Below, one piece after another: positions 43,355 to 52,219 of a stretch of 64,000 nt of DNA. The notes under the pieces were generated by a model, which was given only the letters and a program-made list of their open reading frames with translations, searched no databases and had not been told where the DNA came from. This DNA is from Trichococcus palustris (GTDB lineage: Bacteria > Bacillota > Bacilli > Lactobacillales > Aerococcaceae), in NCBI RefSeq assembly GCF_900114465.1, contig NZ_FOTD01000001.1, positions 248,001-312,000 of the forward strand, written 5' to 3'. The stretch's first letter is position 1. Every line of letters starts with the position of its first letter. The translations under genes were made by a program, and so were the position numbers.

Positions 43355-43628
43355 TTCTATTTCCTCACTAAAAATTTTTTTATTTCCTCGATAAAAGATA
43401 TTGTATGTTCTTTCAAAAATAAGTAATTTAGTAATAATGCAAATATACTCGTTATCATTATAGTTATACTTCTGCAAACTATACATTCAAAATAATTGGA
43501 ACAAACTATTATTGCAGTGTTTTCAAGGAATGTAAATACTGCAATAATAAATACATTAATAATTTTTCACATAAAGGCTTAGAGAAGCTTGTATGATATC
43601 TTTGTCTGCAATTCCAATAAGTCTATAC

Positions 43629-43677
43629 AGCCTGGATCCCCCGCCTACATAGTTATATGTTGGCGGGGATCCAGGCT
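43629..43677. repeat. Palindromic-repeat family, copy C
   Basis: AGCCTGGATCCCC and GGGGATCCAGGCT are exact arms of a hairpin whose loop includes TAGTTATATG. The right half (GTTATATGTTGGCGGGGATC...) aligns with 45221-45257. It lies at the 5' edge of the transposase remnant. Confidence 0.65.
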
Positions 43678-44060
43678 GCCTGTCAAACTCGTCTATGTAC
43701 GGAATCGTAATAAATGTAAAGCTTATTTCGTGTTAGTTTCTACTAACGTGTCTTTAAGCGAAGAGGAAGTCCTTCAATTGTGCGGGAAACGATAGCCTAT
43801 TGAAGGCTTTTTTAAAGTGTGCAAAAGAATCTTCCGTTAGCCAGTTTCCTGTCGTGGGGGCTATCCTGTGATGCTGTATGTGCCCATTTGGGCATTATTT
43901 TAACACAATATGTGATTTTAGCAATGGAAAATCGCCTAAAAAGGAATATTTGATGACTAAAAGTCACTTTAACGTATTTTTTAATTCCTTTTTGGGGAAT
44001 TGCTTAATTTTTGCCCCCAAAAAAAGCAATAGCAGTTTAAATTACCCTTCTTTGTACTTA
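43665..44060 (+). pseudogene. IS4-type DDE transposase remnant
   Basis: Pieces in several frames align in order with the C-terminal third of IS4-family transposases: GSRLPVKLVYVRNRNK and STNVSLSEEEVLQLCGKR (43665-43792), FFKVCKRIF (~43808-43834), then CDAVCAHLGIILTQYVILAM ENR (~43868-43936) running on to 44040. The catalytic N-terminal part is absent, and stops and shifts separate the blocks. A relic of an insertion sequence in the AT-rich region. Confidence 0.7.
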
Positions 44061-44196: not shown

Positions 44197-45024
44197 CTAA
44201 TAATTTGCTGATTTTTTGATTTTATCTTTTTCTGTCTTAGTCAAATAGATAACGATGCTTAGAATGAATAGCAGAAAGAGGGCGCTCGTTCCTACCGTAC
44301 CAAGGCCAAGCCCACCATCAGCATGGGGCTGTGACAGGAAGTCCCCTAAAGATGCGCCGAAGGGACGGGTCAAGATATAGCCGATCCAGAAAGCTAGCAC
44401 CGCATTTAGCTTATAGCGGTAATATGCCAAGAAATCTATCAAGATAAGTGCTGCGAACATAAGCGCAGCTTTCCAGTAGCCGATGGCAAGTCCCTCTGAT
44501 ATCAGATCCCCTGCCGCAGTCCCTAATGCAAAGGTGAATAAAATGGCACACCAGTAGAAAATTTCGCGTTTGACCGTATGGATGGAATGGATGGACAATG
44601 TCTTTTCACTCCTGTACCAAACTACAAAGGTCGTAATAAGTGCTATGCTAAAAACAATTGTTGTCGTCACCAAGGAAACGCCTAAATTATCGGTGAGATT
44701 ATCCGTGATCAAGGTCCCCACAATGCTGATCAGCACTACTGTAAGCCAGTAGATTTTAGGAACGTATTTTTTCGCCTTGAACTGATAGAACAGCGTGATT
44801 ATCAAGAATATGCTCATGATAATGGTAGTGATTGTCAAGCCTAGGTTAAGGGTTTCGCTCAGGAAATCAGCTGCTGTTTCGCCCACTGTTGTAGCCATGA
44901 TTTTGATGATCCAAAAGAAAATGGTTACCTCCGGAACCTTATTGAGCATCTTTTCGGCAAGTGAAGAACCCGCTGATGCATCTTCAAAAACTAGTTGGTT
45001 ATCCATATTGTTTTTTTGATTCAT
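44197..45024 (-). CDS. COG4705 membrane protein
   Basis: 275 residues with about eight membrane helices and three internal repeats of the type TTVGETAADFLSE, GTAAGDLISEGLAIGYW and FGASLGDFLSQ, which define this family (a membrane protein once proposed to influence amylopullulanase). Function not established. ATG 45024 is chosen, 11 nt after AGAGAGG. A tandem-box promoter of the local response-regulator type lies upstream at 45280-45325, separated from the gene by a 192-bp palindromic element. Confidence 0.8.
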   Translation of the reverse strand: MNQKNNMDNQLVFEDASAGSSLAEKMLNKVPEVTIFFWIIKIMATTVGETAADFLSETLNLGLTITTIIMSIFLIITLFYQFKAKKYVPKIYWLTVVLISIVGTLITDNLTDNLGVSLVTTTIVFSIALITTFVVWYRSEKTLSIHSIHTVKREIFYWCAILFTFALGTAAGDLISEGLAIGYWKAALMFAALILIDFLAYYRYKLNAVLAFWIGYILTRPFGASLGDFLSQPHADGGLGLGTVGTSALFLLFILSIVIYLTKTEKDKIKKSANY

Positions 45025-45065
45025 TTTTGCGCACACCTCTCTTATTTGTACTTGTTATTAACCTT

Positions 45066-45257
45066 GCTTGCCAACCTGCATTCCCGGAAAAGTTGTAACT
45101 AGGTCGGGTAAACCCTTGATATCACTGTGTTTTCGCCTAGTTATGTGTAAAATACATAACTAGGCGGATTAAGCCTTGAAATACTATCCAAACGTTAATT
45201 TGACGGGTTTTTCACTTGTTCCTAGTTACGTGTTGGTGGGAATCCAGGTTGCCAAGC
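45066..45257. repeat. MITE-like palindromic element, copies A and B as outer arms
   Basis: The outer arms GCTTGCCAACCTGCATTCCC (45066-45085) and its near-complement GGGAATCCAGGTTGCCAAGC (45239-45258) extend inward through TTGTAACTAGG and CCTAGTTACGTG. The core is a second hairpin, CGCCTAGTTATGT...ACATAACTAGGCG (45134-45166). No coding capacity. It separates the COG4705 gene from its probable promoter and would be transcribed in its leader. Confidence 0.7.
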
Positions 45258-45279
45258 AGTCTCTTCTTGTTCCTCCACT

Positions 45280-45325
45280 ACTATATCGTCGCATTCTAAA
45301 CGAAACATGCTGAAATTCTAAACAA
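45280..45325 (-). promoter_or_regulatory. Tandem-box promoter 1 (COG4705 gene)
   Basis: Minus strand: TTGTTTAGAA (45325-45316), 12 nt, TCGTTTAGAA (45303-45294), 8 nt, -10 TATAGT (45285-45280). The 22-bp period and overlap of the -35 position are typical for an OmpR/PhoB-type activator. The same layout occurs at 48911-48956. Confidence 0.65.
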
Positions 45326-45353
45326 TCTATAAACACCACAAAAAAAATGCCAA

Positions 45354-45385
45354 AAAAGAGTCGAGAATTTCTTCTCGGCTCTTTT
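45354..45385. terminator. Terminator after the DUF2127 gene
   Basis: AAAAGAG.CGAGAA pairs with TTCTCG.CTCTTTT, with A- and T-tracts on both sides; about 108 nt beyond the DUF2127 stop. Confidence 0.7.
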
Positions 45386-45492
45386 GAAAAGCCTAATCTT
45401 TTTAGGGATTAAAGCGTTCTTATGGACTTGCATAAGGTTACTGTGCGCTTTTCCTCTCGGCAGCCCTGATCCCTGTCATTGCATCAGTATTT

Positions 45493-45987
45493 TTAACCGA
45501 TATTTACCTTTTCCGATTTCAAGTGTCTGTATTCTAAAACAATCATCATGATGATTGCTACATCTATGATGATTGTCAGCAACAAAAGCACTGACTGGGT
45601 GTTCAGATAGCTGTATGTTTCATAGGCAACAAACAGTCCGAATACAAACATCGCAAGGGGGTAAGACCACATTATTTTTTTCCACAGCAGCCCGATCACC
45701 GCCAACTTGATTGCACCATGCAGCAACAGATAAATCGCAACCGCATGTTGTGAACTGATTGAAAGATTTTGAACAATCACAATGAAATAATTCATCACGA
45801 CATCATTGGGATCTTTTCTCAACTCAGGAAGTGCGATCAGATGGATGAGGCGATTAAGCTGTTCATGGCTTCGCGTAAGCATCAAAAAGCCACCAGTAAA
45901 TTCCATTAACGCATTGATGGCCTTAATGCCCAAGCCAATATAAAAACCGATGTTGATGACCTTATTTTTATTAAGCGGTTTTTCCAT
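45493..45987 (-). CDS. DUF2127 family membrane protein
   Basis: 164 residues with four membrane helices; GFYIGLGIKAINALMEFTGG at the start and HAVAIYLLLHGAIKLAVIGLL in the middle are the family signatures. Function unknown. ATG 45987 follows AAGGGAG by 6 nt; an ATG 21 nt earlier overlaps the ribosome site. Confidence 0.85.
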   Translation of the reverse strand: MEKPLNKNKVINIGFYIGLGIKAINALMEFTGGFLMLTRSHEQLNRLIHLIALPELRKDPNDVVMNYFIVIVQNLSISSQHAVAIYLLLHGAIKLAVIGLLWKKIMWSYPLAMFVFGLFVAYETYSYLNTQSVLLLLTIIIDVAIIMMIVLEYRHLKSEKVNIG

Positions 45988-46132
45988 AGCTCTCTCCCTT
46001 TCATCCATACCCTGCTACTATAAATTATAGTCCATTATATCCTCTAAGGCTACCGGCGTGGATTTTTTCTATCGTTCCTTACTCCCTTGCTCCAATTACC
46101 ATTGAGGATTCATGCGTGGTCGGATACCGATT

Positions 46133-46180
46133 AAAAAAAAGAAAAGGCCATTGACTCCGTTGCCTGCCACTGTCCTTTTC
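46133..46180 (-). terminator. Probable terminator after the GT4 gene
   Basis: GAAAAGG.CA pairs with TG.CCTTTTC around a long loop; on the minus strand eight T follow. About 10 nt past the stop. Confidence 0.45.
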
Positions 46181-46190
46181 GCTTGCAAAT

Positions 46191-47390
46191 CTATAGAGTC
46201 ATGTCTACTGCTTCTTTCTTTTCGAGTACCATTTCTTGATTGTAATCTTTCAGTGTTTCGTTGTAAGTTGCTAGGACTTGGTCGGCAAACACCTCGGCTG
46301 AAAAGGAAGCCGCTATCCTGCGAGATGATTTTGCCATCATGTTTTTCAAATCTGGATTCTCCATCAATCTGCTGAGGAATTCCGCAAACCCTATCTGGTC
46401 CTCATACTGTATCCCGTTCTGATTATCAAAGATGATTCCATCAAGACAAGCATCTTTTTTGCACACTGCAGGCAATCCATTAGCGATGGCTTCGATATAG
46501 GTCAAGCCCTGAGTCTCGCTGGTGGATGCACTCACGAAAACATCGGCCAGTTGATAGTATTCGTTTACTTTATCAGGCTCAACCATCCCCGTAAATATGA
46601 CTTTGTTCGCCAGATTGCATTCTTTTGCAAGGTTTTCAAGTCTTTCCCTATCCGGGCCGTCGCCTACAATCACCATTTTGATTCTTTCCGAGTCCATTTC
46701 GGCCACGTTATGAATAAGTTCATCAACATTTTTCTCTTTTGCCAATCTTCCGAGTGAAAGGACCACAAAATCGTTTTCCGTGATGGCCAATCGACTTTTC
46801 AACTCATCAATCCGTTTTTTGCCAACTTGTTCCGAATATATTTTCAAATCAATCCCTGTTGGAATCGTATAGATTGGCTTCTGCACATCATAGCTTTCCA
46901 GCAAGCTTTTCACTTTTTCACTAGGGGCTATCACTGCGTCTGTTTTGCTTAGGATTTTTTTGGAAAGCCTGCGTACAGTTACTTTTCCGAACGTGCGATT
47001 CGGCGAAAAGTAATGCGTATAATCTTCATAGACCGTATGGTAGGTATGAACAATCGGGATATGCAACTGCTTTGCTATCCGCTGCGCAAGTACAAAGGTA
47101 CTGAATTCGAAATTTGTATGGATGATATCCGGGTGCCAGTCCAGTATTTCTTTCACCTCTGCACCGCCCATCGTCCGCATGAAGCGTGCCTCCGGATAAA
47201 TCTTGCCGGCACTAACAGAGGGGACATGATAGACGGCATCGTCCGTATATGCCAATGAACTGCGCTGTTTCAATGTCAAAACCCTGACATCATGACCTTT
47301 TTGCAATAATTCTTTTTTTAAATTTAAAACAGAGGTAACGACTCCATTTACAGTAGGCGAATACCAATCTGTGGCTATCAGAATTTTCAT
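46191..47390 (-). CDS. GT4 glycosyltransferase (diacylglycerol glucosyltransferase type)
   Basis: 399 residues, GT-B fold: N-terminal MKILIATDWYSPTVNGVVTSV, VVLSLGRLAKEKNVDELI at the nucleotide domain start, and the retaining-enzyme EX7E region ASTSETQGLTYIEAIANGLP. This is the pattern of Gram-positive monoglucosyl-diacylglycerol synthases, which build glycolipid anchors from UDP-glucose on the inner membrane face. AAGGAG precedes the ATG. It lies among other envelope genes. Donor and acceptor are inferred from subfamily likeness. Confidence 0.85.
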   Translation of the reverse strand: MKILIATDWYSPTVNGVVTSVLNLKKELLQKGHDVRVLTLKQRSSLAYTDDAVYHVPSVSAGKIYPEARFMRTMGGAEVKEILDWHPDIIHTNFEFSTFVLAQRIAKQLHIPIVHTYHTVYEDYTHYFSPNRTFGKVTVRRLSKKILSKTDAVIAPSEKVKSLLESYDVQKPIYTIPTGIDLKIYSEQVGKKRIDELKSRLAITENDFVVLSLGRLAKEKNVDELIHNVAEMDSERIKMVIVGDGPDRERLENLAKECNLANKVIFTGMVEPDKVNEYYQLADVFVSASTSETQGLTYIEAIANGLPAVCKKDACLDGIIFDNQNGIQYEDQIGFAEFLSRLMENPDLKNMMAKSSRRIAASFSAEVFADQVLATYNETLKDYNQEMVLEKKEAVDMTL

Positions 47391-47586
47391 ATTATCTCCT
47401 TAACTCTTCCGCATGAGCTGATATACAAACCTATGGGATTTCATTTGGAAATACCGCAGTTTGTTGAATGGTATCATAGGAATCTTTCCTATCCTTGAAA
47501 GAAGAACATTCGTTTGTTCCATTTCGAGTGGTCCCTATTCGTTCTTGGCGGTATTCATTCCTGATCACTCATGCATATGAATTTTA

Positions 47587-48114
47587 TTATTTGGAGCTCA
47601 TTTTGTATCGTGTGGTAATATACTGTACTCCGTAGAAAGCAGCTACTGCAGCAGCTAACCCAAATAATGCCCCGGCTAATACGTCAGATGGGTAATGTAC
47701 GTATAGGTACATTCTTGAGAATCCTATCAAACTAGCTAAAACGATTGCGGCTACTCCCGATTTCTTGTTGTATAAAAATAAGGAACCCGCGGAAGCAAAG
47801 GACGTAAACGTATGCCCGGACGGGAAAGAGTAATCGCTCGGGTTGGGTATTAAGAGTTTGACGCTGGGGTCAACCCAACTAGGCCTAGGTCTTGCCACAA
47901 TATTCTTCAAAATGACATTACCAAAAATGAAAGAAATAAGCAAGGCCACCAGCATCGTCAGGCCATATATCCGATATTTTGGAATGACCAGCAAAACGAT
48001 GGACAAGGCAATCCAGACCATCCCCCCGTTCCCTAAAGTTGTGATGAACACCATAATCTGATCAAGCAACGGGGTATGGAGGTTCTGTAGAGTATTTAAA
48101 AATGAAAGTTCCAT
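47587..48114 (-). CDS. PAP2-family membrane phosphatase
   Basis: 175 residues with the three phosphatase motifs in order: KNIVARPRP, SFPSGHT and RMYLYVHYPSDVL, and five to six membrane helices. Hydrolyses lipid phosphates such as phosphatidate or undecaprenyl diphosphate at the outer face. AAAAGGAG precedes the ATG. The following VTT gene ends 40 nt upstream of it on the same strand, so they may share a transcript. Confidence 0.9.
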   Translation of the reverse strand: MELSFLNTLQNLHTPLLDQIMVFITTLGNGGMVWIALSIVLLVIPKYRIYGLTMLVALLISFIFGNVILKNIVARPRPSWVDPSVKLLIPNPSDYSFPSGHTFTSFASAGSLFLYNKKSGVAAIVLASLIGFSRMYLYVHYPSDVLAGALFGLAAAVAAFYGVQYITTRYKMSSK

Positions 48115-48154
48115 TTTAGAGGCTCCTTTTGCAATGCTGTTTTTTTAGACAAGA

Positions 48155-48811
48155 TTATTTGATCAACGCTTGTAGGACGGTGTTTAGGCCCATACTATAA
48201 AGAAAGATGGAAAAAGGCTTTGCAAAGACGATGATTGCTGAAAACTTCTTGGCGGAGATCGTGCTGATGCCTGACAAATAGCAAAGCAGATCGTCCGGTG
48301 CCACCGGCAGGAAAATCAAGGTAGCCAGCATTTTATCGAAGCCGTGATCGGAATCCAAATATTTGCTGTAACGGTCATAAAATTTTTCGCCTGTCACCTT
48401 TCGAATGAAATCTGGTCCATAAGCGCGGCCAAGCAAAAAAGCGATGATTGAGCCTAAACAAATACCGACATAGTTATAGATAAATCCGTTGATCGGGCCA
48501 AACATAGCGACCCCCAGTACACAGCCGAGTGCTCCAGGAATGATTGGGACCACCACTTGGATCACCTGTACCAAGATGAACAGCAAAGGGGCTGCGACAA
48601 CGCCGTAATTCCCTAACCAAGCTGCCATTTTTGCTGCAGAAGTAAAGATGCCAAGATTCCATCCATAGATGATGAAGCAAATTGACAGTATGCCACCAAT
48701 GATCGAAATGCTGTTTTTATTTTTGAACAGCCAATCTTGGACTGCTTTATTTTTGGAGCCAACAACCACAGACTCTTTCGGAGTGACCGCCAATTCTTTT
48801 GCGTTCATCAT
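48155..48811 (-). CDS. VTT-domain (TVP38/DedA-like) membrane protein
   Basis: About 218 residues; the VTT/SNARE-associated domain includes VVVPIIPGALGCVLGVAMFGPINGF and FLLGRAYG, with the PVAPDDLLCYLSG re-entrant loop. Family members move lipids, including undecaprenyl or anionic phospholipids, across the membrane. ATG 48811 is preferred by spacing from AAAGG. A tandem-box promoter lies 100 nt upstream at 48911-48956. Confidence 0.85.
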   Translation of the reverse strand: MMNAKELAVTPKESVVVGSKNKAVQDWLFKNKNSISIIGGILSICFIIYGWNLGIFTSAAKMAAWLGNYGVVAAPLLFILVQVIQVVVPIIPGALGCVLGVAMFGPINGFIYNYVGICLGSIIAFLLGRAYGPDFIRKVTGEKFYDRYSKYLDSDHGFDKMLATLIFLPVAPDDLLCYLSGISTISAKKFSAIIVFAKPFSIFLYSMGLNTVLQALIK

Positions 48812-48910
48812 ACTCATCCTTTCCAGAAAACTTTTTTATTTTTTAAACGGGATATCCAAATGGATTCATTATCTTAGCTTTCAAGTAAATTTTTTCCTTG
48901 GTTCTCTATT

Positions 48911-48956
48911 AATATAGCGTAGCGTTCTAAACAAACCATGCGAAAATTCTAAACAA
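48911..48956 (-). promoter_or_regulatory. Tandem-box promoter 2 (VTT gene)
   Basis: Minus strand: TTGTTTAGAA (48956-48947), 12 nt, TTGTTTAGAA (48934-48925), 8 nt, -10 TATATT (48916-48911). The two boxes are identical and exactly 22 bp apart; spacing to the -10 equals that of promoter 1. Confidence 0.7.
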
Positions 48957-49047
48957 TTCATAAATTCAGCAAACTGACAACCAAAAAAGAGCCGAAAAAT
49001 TTCATGTGCCATTTCCCGACCCTTTCGATAGCCTGAAACCATACTTT

Positions 49048-49761
49048 TTACGCATTAAATCGATACCCTGCTCCCCAGATGGTTTCGATATATTTAGGAT
49101 TGCTGCTGTCCTCTTCGATTTTTTCTCGTATGCGGTTAATATGTACCGTAACGGTCGCACCATCGCCAAGATAATCATACCCCCATATTTTTTCAACGAG
49201 ATGCTCTTTCGAAAAAACGCGGTTCGGATTGCTCGCTAGAAACGACAGTAACTCGAACTCTTTATTCGCTAATTTCACTTCTTGATTACCCTTATAGACT
49301 TTCCAGCTCTTTGTCATGATGCGCAGATTTCCTACACGAATAACGCCTTCTTCATTTTCCGTTCTTTCGTCACGGCCGGCATTTTTTAAACGCTCATACA
49401 TTTTCAAATGCGATTTCACACGGGCAACCAATTCGGCAGGATCGAACGGTTTTGCGATGTAATCATCGGCCCCCAAACCGAGGCCCCTCACTTTATCGAC
49501 CGATTCCGTTTTAGCCGTTACCATCAGGATGGGTATATCGACTTGGTCTCTGATTTCACGGCAAATGTCGTAGCCGCTCTTACCCGGCAGCATCAAATCC
49601 AAAATAAGCAGGTCATAATCTCCCTTCAGAACCCTTTCAACTGCATGAAACCCGTCCGAAAGGATGTCTACTTCGTAGCCACTGATTTCCAGATAATCCC
49701 GTTCTAACATTGCAATTTCTTCTTCATCTTCAACAAGTAATATTTTGGCCAATTCGCTCAC
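49048..49761 (-). CDS. OmpR/PhoB-family response regulator
   Basis: 237 residues: receiver domain with the acidic pair EDEEE, phospho-Asp in LLILDLMLPG (about residue 54) and Lys in AKPFDP; C-terminal winged helix with TVTVHINRIREKIEEDSSNPKYIETIWGAGYRF. Transcription from tandem direct repeats is the norm for this class. It overlaps the downstream kinase start by 4 nt (ATGA-type) in reverse order: the regulator is downstream of... the kinase frame at 49758, so the kinase reads second. Confidence 0.93.
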   Translation of the reverse strand: MSELAKILLVEDEEEIAMLERDYLEISGYEVDILSDGFHAVERVLKGDYDLLILDLMLPGKSGYDICREIRDQVDIPILMVTAKTESVDKVRGLGLGADDYIAKPFDPAELVARVKSHLKMYERLKNAGRDERTENEEGVIRVGNLRIMTKSWKVYKGNQEVKLANKEFELLSFLASNPNRVFSKEHLVEKIWGYDYLGDGATVTVHINRIREKIEEDSSNPKYIETIWGAGYRFNA

Positions 49762-51227
49762 CCTTTCCCTTCCCGTTTTACCCTAGGCAGTGTAATAGTA
49801 ATCCGAAGGCCATCGTGATTTTCGGCCTTCACGCTACCTCCATGTTGCTCGACAATATACTTCACGATATAGAGGCCCAGCCCATTGCCTTCTTTTTTTG
49901 TATTTCTGGCTTCATCGACACGATAGAATTGCTCAAACAACTGATTTAGTTTTTCAGCAGGCACACCATCACCATCGTCTTGGATAATGAGCACTTCTTC
50001 GTCTGCCTGCGAGGTTAAGCTGAACCTAATCTGTGACCGGTCTTTCCTGCGGTATTTGATGCTGTTTTCGACAATATTGGTAAGGACACGATGCATCTGT
50101 TCGGAATCCACTTGGACAAGATGGTTCCTCCCTGAACTTTCCCACTCGATTTCAGCGTGCGTTTCTTCTTTTTCGATATTGAACGCATCCACAAATCCCT
50201 TTAAGTATGCAGCCAGATCCGTCTCCACGAAATGGAGCGGCATATTGCCTGTTTCCATTTTCGAGAAAAAAAATAGTTTTTGCAAGAGTATATCCATCTC
50301 GCAAGCTTTGCGATAGGCTACTTCTAAATACTTCGCTCTTTTTTCCGGAGTGTTTGCCACTCCGTCCTGTAACCCTTTGATGTAGCCCTTAACAGAAGTC
50401 AAGGGGGTCCGTAGATCGTGGGATATTCCCGAAATCATATCTGTCCGGGCTTTTTCATATTTTTTATTTTGCTCAAGCGTAGCTTTTAATTGGACTTGCA
50501 TACTGTTGAAGGAATCGCAGACATCCTTGAGTTCCTCTTCTTCCACTCCGGTAATTTCTTCATCAAAATTGCCCGTTTGGATTCGTTTTGCGCCATCAGC
50601 TAACCTTTGAATCGGTGCCATGATCTGCCTTGTCATCAACTGTGATAAAAACATGCTGAAAAGTATTATGGCAAGGATGGCTGCCACGACGATCGCAATT
50701 GCAGAGGCGCCTATCGTGACCAAGGACCCAAAATTCAAATTCCCTAGGATCCCCATTTCCGTTGATCCGGTGGCAATAAAGACTATCTTTTGGCCATTTT
50801 GCTCAATCGTCCGAATCACGATGGTAGCTCCGATTCGCTGAATGAACGTATCCCGTTCTTTATTCTTTAACTTGTCTATATTGACGTACTTGTTCAAATA
50901 TCTGATTTCATCTTTTTCAAGATTGGAAAAAACAATGTTATCCTGATTCAATGCCATCACATGGTAGCCGTCCTTTTTGGCGCGCTGCTCCAAATCATTT
51001 TGTGCCTGCACATCCGTCAAAAGCATTTTCACATCCACAGCATCCAAAGTCGCTTCCACGCTCGTAACCAAATTTTCGACGGATGCAATCTTGGTGTCAC
51101 TTGGTATGATAACATTCTGTACAAGCTCCAAAAAGCCCCATGCAAAAGTCGCCATCAGCAGAACCGGAAAGGCTACCATCACTAAATTCGAGAGGAACAA
51201 TTTCTTTCTCATTGTTTTTTTTCTCAT
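49758..51227 (-). CDS. Sensor histidine kinase
   Basis: 489 residues: membrane helix at ~10-32, an extracellular sensor of about 135 residues, a second helix at ~170-197, HAMP, HisKA with the phospho-His in GISHDLRTPLTSVKGY, and HATPase with NIVENSIKY (N box), DDGDGVP and GNGLGLYIVKYI. GGAG lies 7 nt before the ATG. It is transcribed first on the minus strand and overlaps the response regulator by 4 nt. The signal is unknown; neighbouring genes suggest envelope stress. Confidence 0.93.
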   Translation of the reverse strand: MRKKTMRKKLFLSNLVMVAFPVLLMATFAWGFLELVQNVIIPSDTKIASVENLVTSVEATLDAVDVKMLLTDVQAQNDLEQRAKKDGYHVMALNQDNIVFSNLEKDEIRYLNKYVNIDKLKNKERDTFIQRIGATIVIRTIEQNGQKIVFIATGSTEMGILGNLNFGSLVTIGASAIAIVVAAILAIILFSMFLSQLMTRQIMAPIQRLADGAKRIQTGNFDEEITGVEEEELKDVCDSFNSMQVQLKATLEQNKKYEKARTDMISGISHDLRTPLTSVKGYIKGLQDGVANTPEKRAKYLEVAYRKACEMDILLQKLFFFSKMETGNMPLHFVETDLAAYLKGFVDAFNIEKEETHAEIEWESSGRNHLVQVDSEQMHRVLTNIVENSIKYRRKDRSQIRFSLTSQADEEVLIIQDDGDGVPAEKLNQLFEQFYRVDEARNTKKEGNGLGLYIVKYIVEQHGGSVKAENHDGLRITITLPRVKREGKG

Positions 51228-51299
51228 GTCATTTCTCCATTCAGGGTGTAAATATTGACGGGCATGGCTTTCTTTGCCTCCCTAAATCCTTACCTTAAC

Positions 51300-51323
51300 A
51301 GTATAGCAACTATTTATTAACAA
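51300..51323 (-). promoter_or_regulatory. Related promoter 3 (kinase-regulator operon)
   Basis: Minus strand: TTGTTAATAA (51323-51314), 8 nt, -10 TATACT (51305-51300). The box resembles TTGTTTAGAA and is preceded by GTTTATGAA, as in promoter 2 (TTTATGAA). The upstream partner 22 bp away is weak. It suggests autoregulation. Confidence 0.5.
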
Positions 51324-51502
51324 TTCATAAACTTACATTAAAAATCGATGGTTTTCATAATAAATTCATGATTTCAGTATATACTATTGTTTCTAGTCCA
51401 CTTGAGTTGCGAAAGACTAGATTGTTAGATGGGATTCCCTGAACAGATTCCGTCGACGACGATACGACAGAACAACCGATAAAAGGAGAATATATAATAG
51501 AA

Positions 51503-52219
51503 ATGAATACAGCAATATTAATGGGGCTATTCATCGGAATAGCTGGCTTTACATTTTTAGGTAAGGGTCTTTTTTTGTATACTCTAGGGATTTATATGGA
51601 CTTACCGAATGTCATCGTCCACGAATGCGGCCATGCATTAACCGCTCGCTTATGGGGCGGCAACATCAAATCGGTGAAATTTAACATTATCCCCTCAATC
51701 GTTATGAGCGAGGGCTTGTTAGGGCAAGCAATCATTGGGAACCGGCATAAGTTGGGCTCCATTTTCAGTACATTGGGAGGCTACGTATCCCAATCGTTGT
51801 TCTTTTTGTTGATTACCTGCTTGGTTTTGAATGGCCAAACCCTTTTGATCATCCCACTTTTCTTGGCTATTTATCTGATGACGAATCTGTTGGCCGCAGA
51901 CAAGAGCTTCTGGCAAAACCTGATCATTTTTGCGGTCATCGCTTCGGGCATTTATCTATACCAGAACAACCTGGATATTTTGTTGACCATTTACCATTCC
52001 TTTGACACCATCACGGCTGTTTTCATCATTTGGTATATGGCCGGGTTGGCACATCAAATCTTTATCGTTCTGAGATTGAAGACGAACACACATTGGGACG
52101 GTTCTTCTTTAGCGAAAGATACCTATATTCCCACGGTCATTTGGAAGATCCTATTTTTAGCTGTGATGGTGGGAGCCTATTTCTCATATTACTGGATTTC
52201 AAATATTGCCCTCCTTTGA
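51503..52219 (+). CDS. M50B-like membrane metalloprotease
   Basis: 238 residues, six or so membrane helices, with the zinc motif HECGH in NVIVHECGHALTARLWGG (near residue 40) inside a helix, as in site-2-protease relatives. The second zinc Asp is not obvious. Peptidase M50B-like proteins are mostly uncharacterised. AAAAGGAG lies 14 nt before the ATG, somewhat long. Divergent from the two-component operon, which could control it. Confidence 0.8.
   Translation: MNTAILMGLFIGIAGFTFLGKGLFLYTLGIYMDLPNVIVHECGHALTARLWGGNIKSVKFNIIPSIVMSEGLLGQAIIGNRHKLGSIFSTLGGYVSQSLFFLLITCLVLNGQTLLIIPLFLAIYLMTNLLAADKSFWQNLIIFAVIASGIYLYQNNLDILLTIYHSFDTITAVFIIWYMAGLAHQIFIVLRLKTNTHWDGSSLAKDTYIPTVIWKILFLAVMVGAYFSYYWISNIALL

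Follow-up and report, generated by a model that had tools for sequence, protein, structure and literature searches.

Two-component genes and their promoters

The window analysed here, a 64,000-nt stretch of a Trichococcus palustris contig, carries on its minus strand the genes for a sensor histidine kinase (49758..51227, 489 aa) and an OmpR/PhoB-type response regulator (49048..49761, 237 aa), together with three promoters that have TTTA-type boxes ahead of the -10 hexamer. The kinase matches the Pfam models HAMP, HisKA, and HATPase_c, and the regulator matches Response_reg (receiver) and the winged-helix Trans_reg_C, all five above the Pfam gathering cut-offs, which places the pair in this family of two-component systems. 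Orthologs of both proteins are encoded by Trichococcus patagoniensis (G007; the T. palustris genome is G000), with 89% and 93% identity for kinase and regulator, respectively. The closest solved relatives of the regulator are RegX3 and MtrA, and orthology to WalR/YycF was rejected, as the regulator reaches 238 bits against an NCBIfam YycF cut-off of 340.

The initial annotation described boxes that occur twice with an exact 22-bp period before the COG4705 and VTT genes, with 8 nt between the second box and the -10. This observation is confirmed at both sites, which lie on the minus strand. At site A, the boxes are located at 45325-45316 (TTGTTTAGAA) and 45303-45294 (TCGTTTAGAA), followed by the -10 TATAGT (45285-45280), and at site B at 48956-48947 and 48934-48925 (both TTGTTTAGAA), followed by TATATT (48916-48911). 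The 22-bp period is real, but it consists of two 11-bp steps within a longer element that also bears conserved GCATG and TTTATRAA parts. Including the -10, this four-step element (-48 to -5) spans 45280..45333 at site A, upstream of the DUF347/COG4705 gene, and 48911..48964 at site B, upstream of the VTT-PAP2-GT4-DUF2127 genes. Before the kinase and regulator genes, a related box (TTGTTAATAA) does stand 8 nt from TATACT (51305-51300, minus strand) as annotated, but it belongs to a half-element without the 22-bp pair.

The promoter element within the genome and across genomes

Scanning the complete genome (2.93 Mb) with the box pattern of the initial annotation at up to three mismatches gave four matches, compared to none for the reversed pattern, which was used as the control throughout. 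The two further sites are C (G000:C7:9079-9124) and D (G000:C6:133524-133569), and all four sites have GCATG and TTT in common within the part that this pattern had left open. A sharpened pattern, TTTAGAATTTN2GCATGN5TTTAGAA (TTTAGAATTTNNGCATGNNNNNTTTAGAA, 22 bases), has four perfect matches in the genome, none at one to three mismatches, and none in the control, vs. ~1e-6 perfect matches expected from base composition, a figure that is no fair P value because the pattern was composed after A-D had been seen. The fair test of sites C and D is offered by held-out positions, namely the 15 positions from -48 to -9 that are common to A and B outside the annotated pattern. Both C and D agree with 14/15 of them, corresponding to a match probability of ~1e-7 per new site if the positions are independent. 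With a matrix derived from sites A and B of both species (G000 and G007), C reaches 43.2 and D 39.3, while the next best scores in those loci are -6.0 and -10.3, and a six-site matrix yields scores of -4.0 or lower on five simulated windows. As pattern searches covered the whole genome and matrices the window and these loci only, weaker sites may have been missed.

When the six target promoters (A-D and the G007 counterparts of A and B) are aligned on the -10, they read TTTATRAATTG, TTTAGAATTTN, NGCATGNNNNN, and TTTAGAANNNN, followed by N4 and TATANT, with single departures from this consensus in A (TTTATAGATTG), D (TTTATAAACTG), and the G007 counterpart of A (TTTAGACTTTC). The 11-bp steps begin at -48, -37, -26, and -15, and all six promoters agree at 29 of the 40 positions between -48 and -9. 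TTTA begins at -48, -37, and -15 in each of them, and the -26 step is NGCATG. The boxes had been proposed to take the place of the -35, which is borne out insofar as none of the three -10 hexamers in the window is used as the second hexamer by any sigma-70-type match of the region (19 matches, 19.5 expected from shuffling). One of these matches overlaps the site A box (TTTAGA, 18 nt, TAGAAT, 45322-45293) and was discarded, since it leaves the aligned -10 unused and such matches occur at shuffle level. OmpR/PhoB-family regulators often bind 11-bp direct repeats beside the -10, substituting for the -35, and promoters activated in this way are characterized by direct repeats with an ~11-bp step that overlap the -35 position, together with a poor -35. 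Both the target and the kinase promoters display this arrangement, and we read the target promoters as activator-dependent, with two regulator dimers predicted to bind at each.

The kinase-regulator promoter (51300..51342, minus strand) has the sequence TTTAATGTAAG-TTTATGAATTG-TTAATAAATAG-TTGC-TATACT, with the distal half-element at -26. In G000 and G007, it reads TTTAATGTRAG, TTTAKGAATTG, and TTWATAWATAG at -37, -26, and -15, followed by TTGC and TATACT, with TTTA or TTAA at the three positions in both species. A matrix for the distal half fits the G000 promoter best at -26 (16.0 of 32.1 bits), thus placing the half-element 22 bp nearer to the -10 than in the targets; this score is the third highest in the 64-kb window behind A and B (next, 12.6). 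The half-element of G007 is found at the same place and is weak (11.3 bits). The pattern TTTATRAATTGTTWAKAA, in which W and K were chosen so that the kinase promoter is admitted, matches five places in the genome at up to one mismatch (A, B, C, D, and the kinase promoter) and four more at two mismatches, with three control matches at up to two. A degenerate kinase-type promoter pattern retrieved the kinase promoter itself and one site with two mismatches (control, 0).

Between G000 and G007, promoters were compared without gaps over the element (-48 to -5, 44 positions) and over 50 bases on either side (-110..-61 and +6..+55). The element is kept at 40/44 positions in A, 43/44 in B, and 33/44 in the kinase promoter, and the upstream flanks at 13, 9, and 6 of the 50 positions, respectively. 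The position of dedA also differs between the species. In G007, it follows the regulator gene after ~80 nt and is read in the same direction, with no element in between, and in G000 it stands under site D, on the contig of the regulator gene but ~163 kb away from it. A shared regulator would be expected to leave just such a pattern, the gene following the regulator in one species and the element in the other. In G007, dedA is split over two unjoined contig ends (L034 93-365 and L033 10619-10993, residues 1-91 and 89-213), perhaps due to a repeat or mobile element.

Among 13 Trichococcus genomes, the element (up to two mismatches) is present in G000 (n = 4) and G007 (n = 2) and in none of the other 11. 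These two are also the only ones encoding a kinase with at least 89% identity; the best match in the remaining 11 is at most 30% identical. Extending the search to the family (76 genomes, up to three mismatches) added merely four stray matches with three mismatches, equal to the control (n = 4). In a sample of 395 genomes of the order, which omits the incomplete genus members G005 and G011, matches at up to two mismatches were obtained in G000 (n = 4), G007 (n = 2), and G372 (n = 1, two mismatches), and one in the control. The G372 match was set aside, as it has no TATANT at the proper distance and the control equally gave one match. At up to one mismatch, the element is confined to G000 and G007, the sole two of the 395 genomes with a kinase more than 41% identical. 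Kinase matches with E <= 1e-60 occur in 21 of these genomes, i.e. G000, G007 (89%), and 19 others with 31%-41% identity, some of which are nearly full-length, and a scan of GTDB contigs identified one ortholog, that of T. patagoniensis (89%), and two remote matches (19%-22%). A regulator with 47%-60% identity accompanies the kinase at 11 of 12 loci of more distant homologs. Upstream of the kinase start, a two-step pattern gave one weak match (L088) in these 12 loci, where the start is wrong in at least one case (L092) and the regulator alignment comprises seven sequences, and the GCATG element was found at up to two mismatches in none of the 12 genomes.

Regulatory model and rival explanations

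We consider it highly probable that the local kinase-regulator pair (51227-49048) activates a small envelope regulon. The initial annotation had proposed a shared regulon of this OmpR/PhoB-type pair, and this is the best-supported reading of the promoters, since the element is confined genome-wide, occurs at up to one mismatch only in the two of 395 sampled genomes with the kinase, is kept between species in contrast to the upstream flanks, and in three of its four copies precedes lipid or envelope genes. The kinase would sense an envelope signal and phosphorylate the regulator, which would bind the 11-bp repeats as head-to-tail dimers. At the targets, TTTATRAATTG-TTTAGAATTTN, the distal pair of steps, would be occupied by one dimer, and NGCATGNNNNN-TTTAGAA, the proximal pair, by another; as this second dimer would be situated at the -35 place, 8 nt from the -10, the regulator could recruit RNA polymerase in a class II-type activation. 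At the kinase promoter, the distal-type half-element itself lies directly at the -35 place, and the pair probably also regulates its own expression, which is the weakest link of this model. The regulated units would be DUF347, VTT-PAP2-GT4-DUF2127, a second PAP2 gene, and dedA, perhaps with mprF, the operon extents being predictions. The likely output would be the recycling of the lipid carrier undecaprenyl phosphate and the remodelling of membrane lipids. More tentatively, and with somewhat less than even confidence, we suggest that these parts form a self-contained accessory envelope module, which two Trichococcus species have retained as a whole: the regulator pair, a promoter code private to it, and scattered target operons. 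An exact 22-bp shift of the half-site, equal to two helical turns, may be what distinguishes self-regulation from target activation in this code, and the targets may require a second dimer on the GCATG half.

The four promoters might instead constitute the regulon of another OmpR-type regulator encoded elsewhere, to which the local pair is merely adjacent, an explanation that we regard as unlikely. The genome has 13 histidine kinase matches (E <= 0.001, query included), making other OmpR-type regulators likely, and the kinase promoter has only a half-element, which is weak in G007. However, the element tracks the local kinase over the 395 sampled genomes, the local promoter is among just five half-element places at up to one mismatch, and dedA is found directly behind the regulator gene in G007. 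A genus-wide regulator might also leave sites elsewhere, and none were detected (up to two mismatches) in 11 of the 13 Trichococcus genomes, although the tested targets are missing there too.

An origin of the four elements from a dispersed, promoter-bearing repeat, whose copies would resemble each other through recent duplication and not through selection for a regulator, is very improbable. This would fit the variable positions, at which A and B as well as C and D are closer than sites across these pairs, and the upstream flanks of A and B, which are identical at 25/50 positions and both hold a CTCTTTTTTGG run, by eye the tails of terminators. The flanks had been annotated as unrelated, and this holds for the other five of the six A-D pairs, which are identical at 11-15/50 positions upstream (-110..-61). 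Duplication is further countered by the downstream flanks, identical at 11-19/50 positions in all six pairs, by the element being far better kept between the species at A and B than the upstream flanks there (40 and 43 of 44 vs. 13 and 9 of 50), and by the lack of additional genomic copies of the sharpened pattern. A chance resemblance of promoter sequences, for which the AT-richness of the region and the expected recurrence of short box pairs by themselves might speak, is refuted by the counts and has a negligible probability, given the empty genome control at up to three mismatches, the held-out agreement of both new sites, and the wide gap between the matrix scores of C and D and those of the next best or simulated sequences.

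Several observations nevertheless weigh against regulation by the local pair. Among lags 8-24, lag 11 gives the best self-match in D and both kinase promoters only; it is exceeded by lag 9 at A, B, and their G007 counterparts (A7, B7) and by lag 8 at C. The case for an 11-bp step is thus made by the aligned TTTA positions and not by overall periodicity. The 11.3 bits of the G007 half-element do not exceed chance matches in the window (12.6, 11.6), and the full 54-bp matrix fails on the kinase promoter, with -25.3 for the G007 counterpart and a rank outside the top six of the window. Downstream of the element, 30 (A), 16 (B), and 27 (kinase promoter) of the 50 bases are kept between the species, which gives the footprint a sharp boundary upstream and, at B only, downstream. 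The genome also has two other VTT-domain genes (C9:55119, C6:129455) that are without the element, and the functional coherence of the targets was judged from annotations and not from a computed enrichment. Within the genus, close orthologs of VTT and DedA are limited to G000 and G007, and the second PAP2 to G000. As the tested targets are thereby confined like the regulator, no genome without the regulator allows a gene to be compared in the presence and absence of the element. Element and regulator could also be co-inherited for other reasons, and other regulators confined to G000 and G007 are still candidates.

Candidate targets and related systems

The candidate target of site A is the gene of a DUF347 membrane protein (44197..45036, minus strand; PF03988, E 3.1e-64), for which the COG4705 label was taken over from the initial annotation and ATG 45024 is the likely start by eye. 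The distance from the -10 to this start is ~255 nt (window 45024-45280) vs. ~75 nt in G007, pointing to a gain or loss of roughly 180 nt in this interval. Part of a perfect 14-nt inverted repeat (CAGCCTGGATCCCC / GGGGATCCAGGCTG, window 43628-43678) resembles sequence near positions 45237-45253 by eye.

Site B is followed on the same strand by the genes of a VTT-domain membrane protein (48155..48817, PF09335), a PAP2 phosphatase (47587..48114, PF01569) with a weak likeness to the undecaprenyl-diphosphatase SepP (NF047884, 92.5 bits vs. cut-off 250), a GT4 glycosyltransferase (46191..47390) that is glycolipid-synthase-like but no certified member of that family (NF049988, 241.5 bits vs. cut-off 400), and a DUF2127 membrane protein (45493..46008, PF09900) as the final gene of the putative operon. 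The gaps after the PAP2 and GT4 genes measure 196 and 182 nt here and ~40 and ~190 nt in G007, and the four genes are likely to form one operon. A terminator-like stem just upstream of site A (45362..45377, minus strand) probably ends this operon, with such matches occurring at shuffle level (8 vs. 7.8 expected).

Site C precedes the gene of a 224-aa PAP2 protein, with a GTG start (L031 8911) behind GGAGG by eye, and site D that of a 217-aa DedA-like protein, which matches the VTT domain and scores just under the cut-off of the DedA family model (227 vs. 236 bits). At least 285 nt beyond this dedA lies a gene identified as mprF by NCBIfam NF033480 (726.5 bits, cut-off 600); its transcription from site D is a guess. 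Also beside site D (L032 5434-9061), a further VTT protein, an AI-2E-type transporter, and an LCP (LytR-CpsA-Psr) protein are encoded in a membrane/envelope cluster. Three of the four element copies thus precede lipid or envelope genes and the fourth the gene of a membrane protein whose function is unknown (DUF347), and PAP2 and VTT/DedA domains recur under separate copies. The protease that the initial annotation had named as part of a functional link was rejected as a regulon member: the M50B gene (51503-52219) is without an element copy, and the copies found genome-wide sit elsewhere. On the plus strand before this divergent gene (51350-51385), two copies of TTCAT at an 11-bp distance precede TATACT (by eye) and are possibly another repeat-type site.

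CiaR is an OmpR-type regulator that acts in place of the -35. For the CiaRH regulon of streptococci, the published study gives the direct repeat TTTAAG-N5-TTTAAG with an invariant G at position 6, and thus shares with the element described here a TTTA-containing direct repeat with an 11-bp step (PMC3091779). In its search pattern, the last repeat lies 10 nt from the -10, compared to 9 nt from the end of TTTAGA in our promoters, which further differ by TTTAGAA and by having four steps, of which the GCATG step diverges, with an outer period of 22 bp. The recognition helices also differ, with VVEVYVSKVRKKL in CiaR and, aligned by eye, TVTVHINRIREKI in the regulator described here (PMC3091779). 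Membership in a CiaR regulon was rejected, as these sites have TTTAGAA or TTTATRA and lack the G at position 6 that the source gives as invariant (PMC3091779). The GraSR system of Staphylococcus aureus is similar in its two-component control of mprF and envelope defence, but its likely site is given as the 10-bp palindrome ACAAATTTGT in place of direct repeats, and GraXSR is described there as lacking autoregulation, in contrast to the candidate self-regulated promoter found here (PMC3128592). Since this palindrome, as reported there, is absent by eye from the aligned elements, membership in a GraR regulon was likewise rejected (PMC3128592). BAS0540-BAS0541 of Bacillus anthracis, compared by description only, has an OmpR-type regulator acting on a TTTAAG direct repeat with an 11-bp step, including one upstream of its own gene, but has another box sequence and other targets (PMC4938410).

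With regard to function, a study on the DedA and DUF368 families describes undecaprenyl phosphate translocases, offering candidate roles for DedA-family proteins, and concerns transport, not control (PMC9876793). The likeness of the site D protein to these translocases is one of family only, and its transport activity is a prediction; we infer that the VTT, DedA, and PAP2 proteins encoded here may serve carrier recycling.

In the open-access literature search results, we recognised no description of this kinase-regulator system or of the TTTAGAA site. The system thus appears to be real, ordinary in kind, and undescribed as far as searched, and is well supported for a prediction made from sequence. 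This prediction would provide one two-component system with a promoter code and a set of five candidate transcription units, the four targets and the pair itself, and would link VTT/DedA proteins, PAP2 phosphatases, DUF347, DUF2127, and perhaps MprF under a single switch. For DUF347 and DUF2127, two families without a known function, a part in lipid-carrier recycling or membrane defence would thereby become open to testing.

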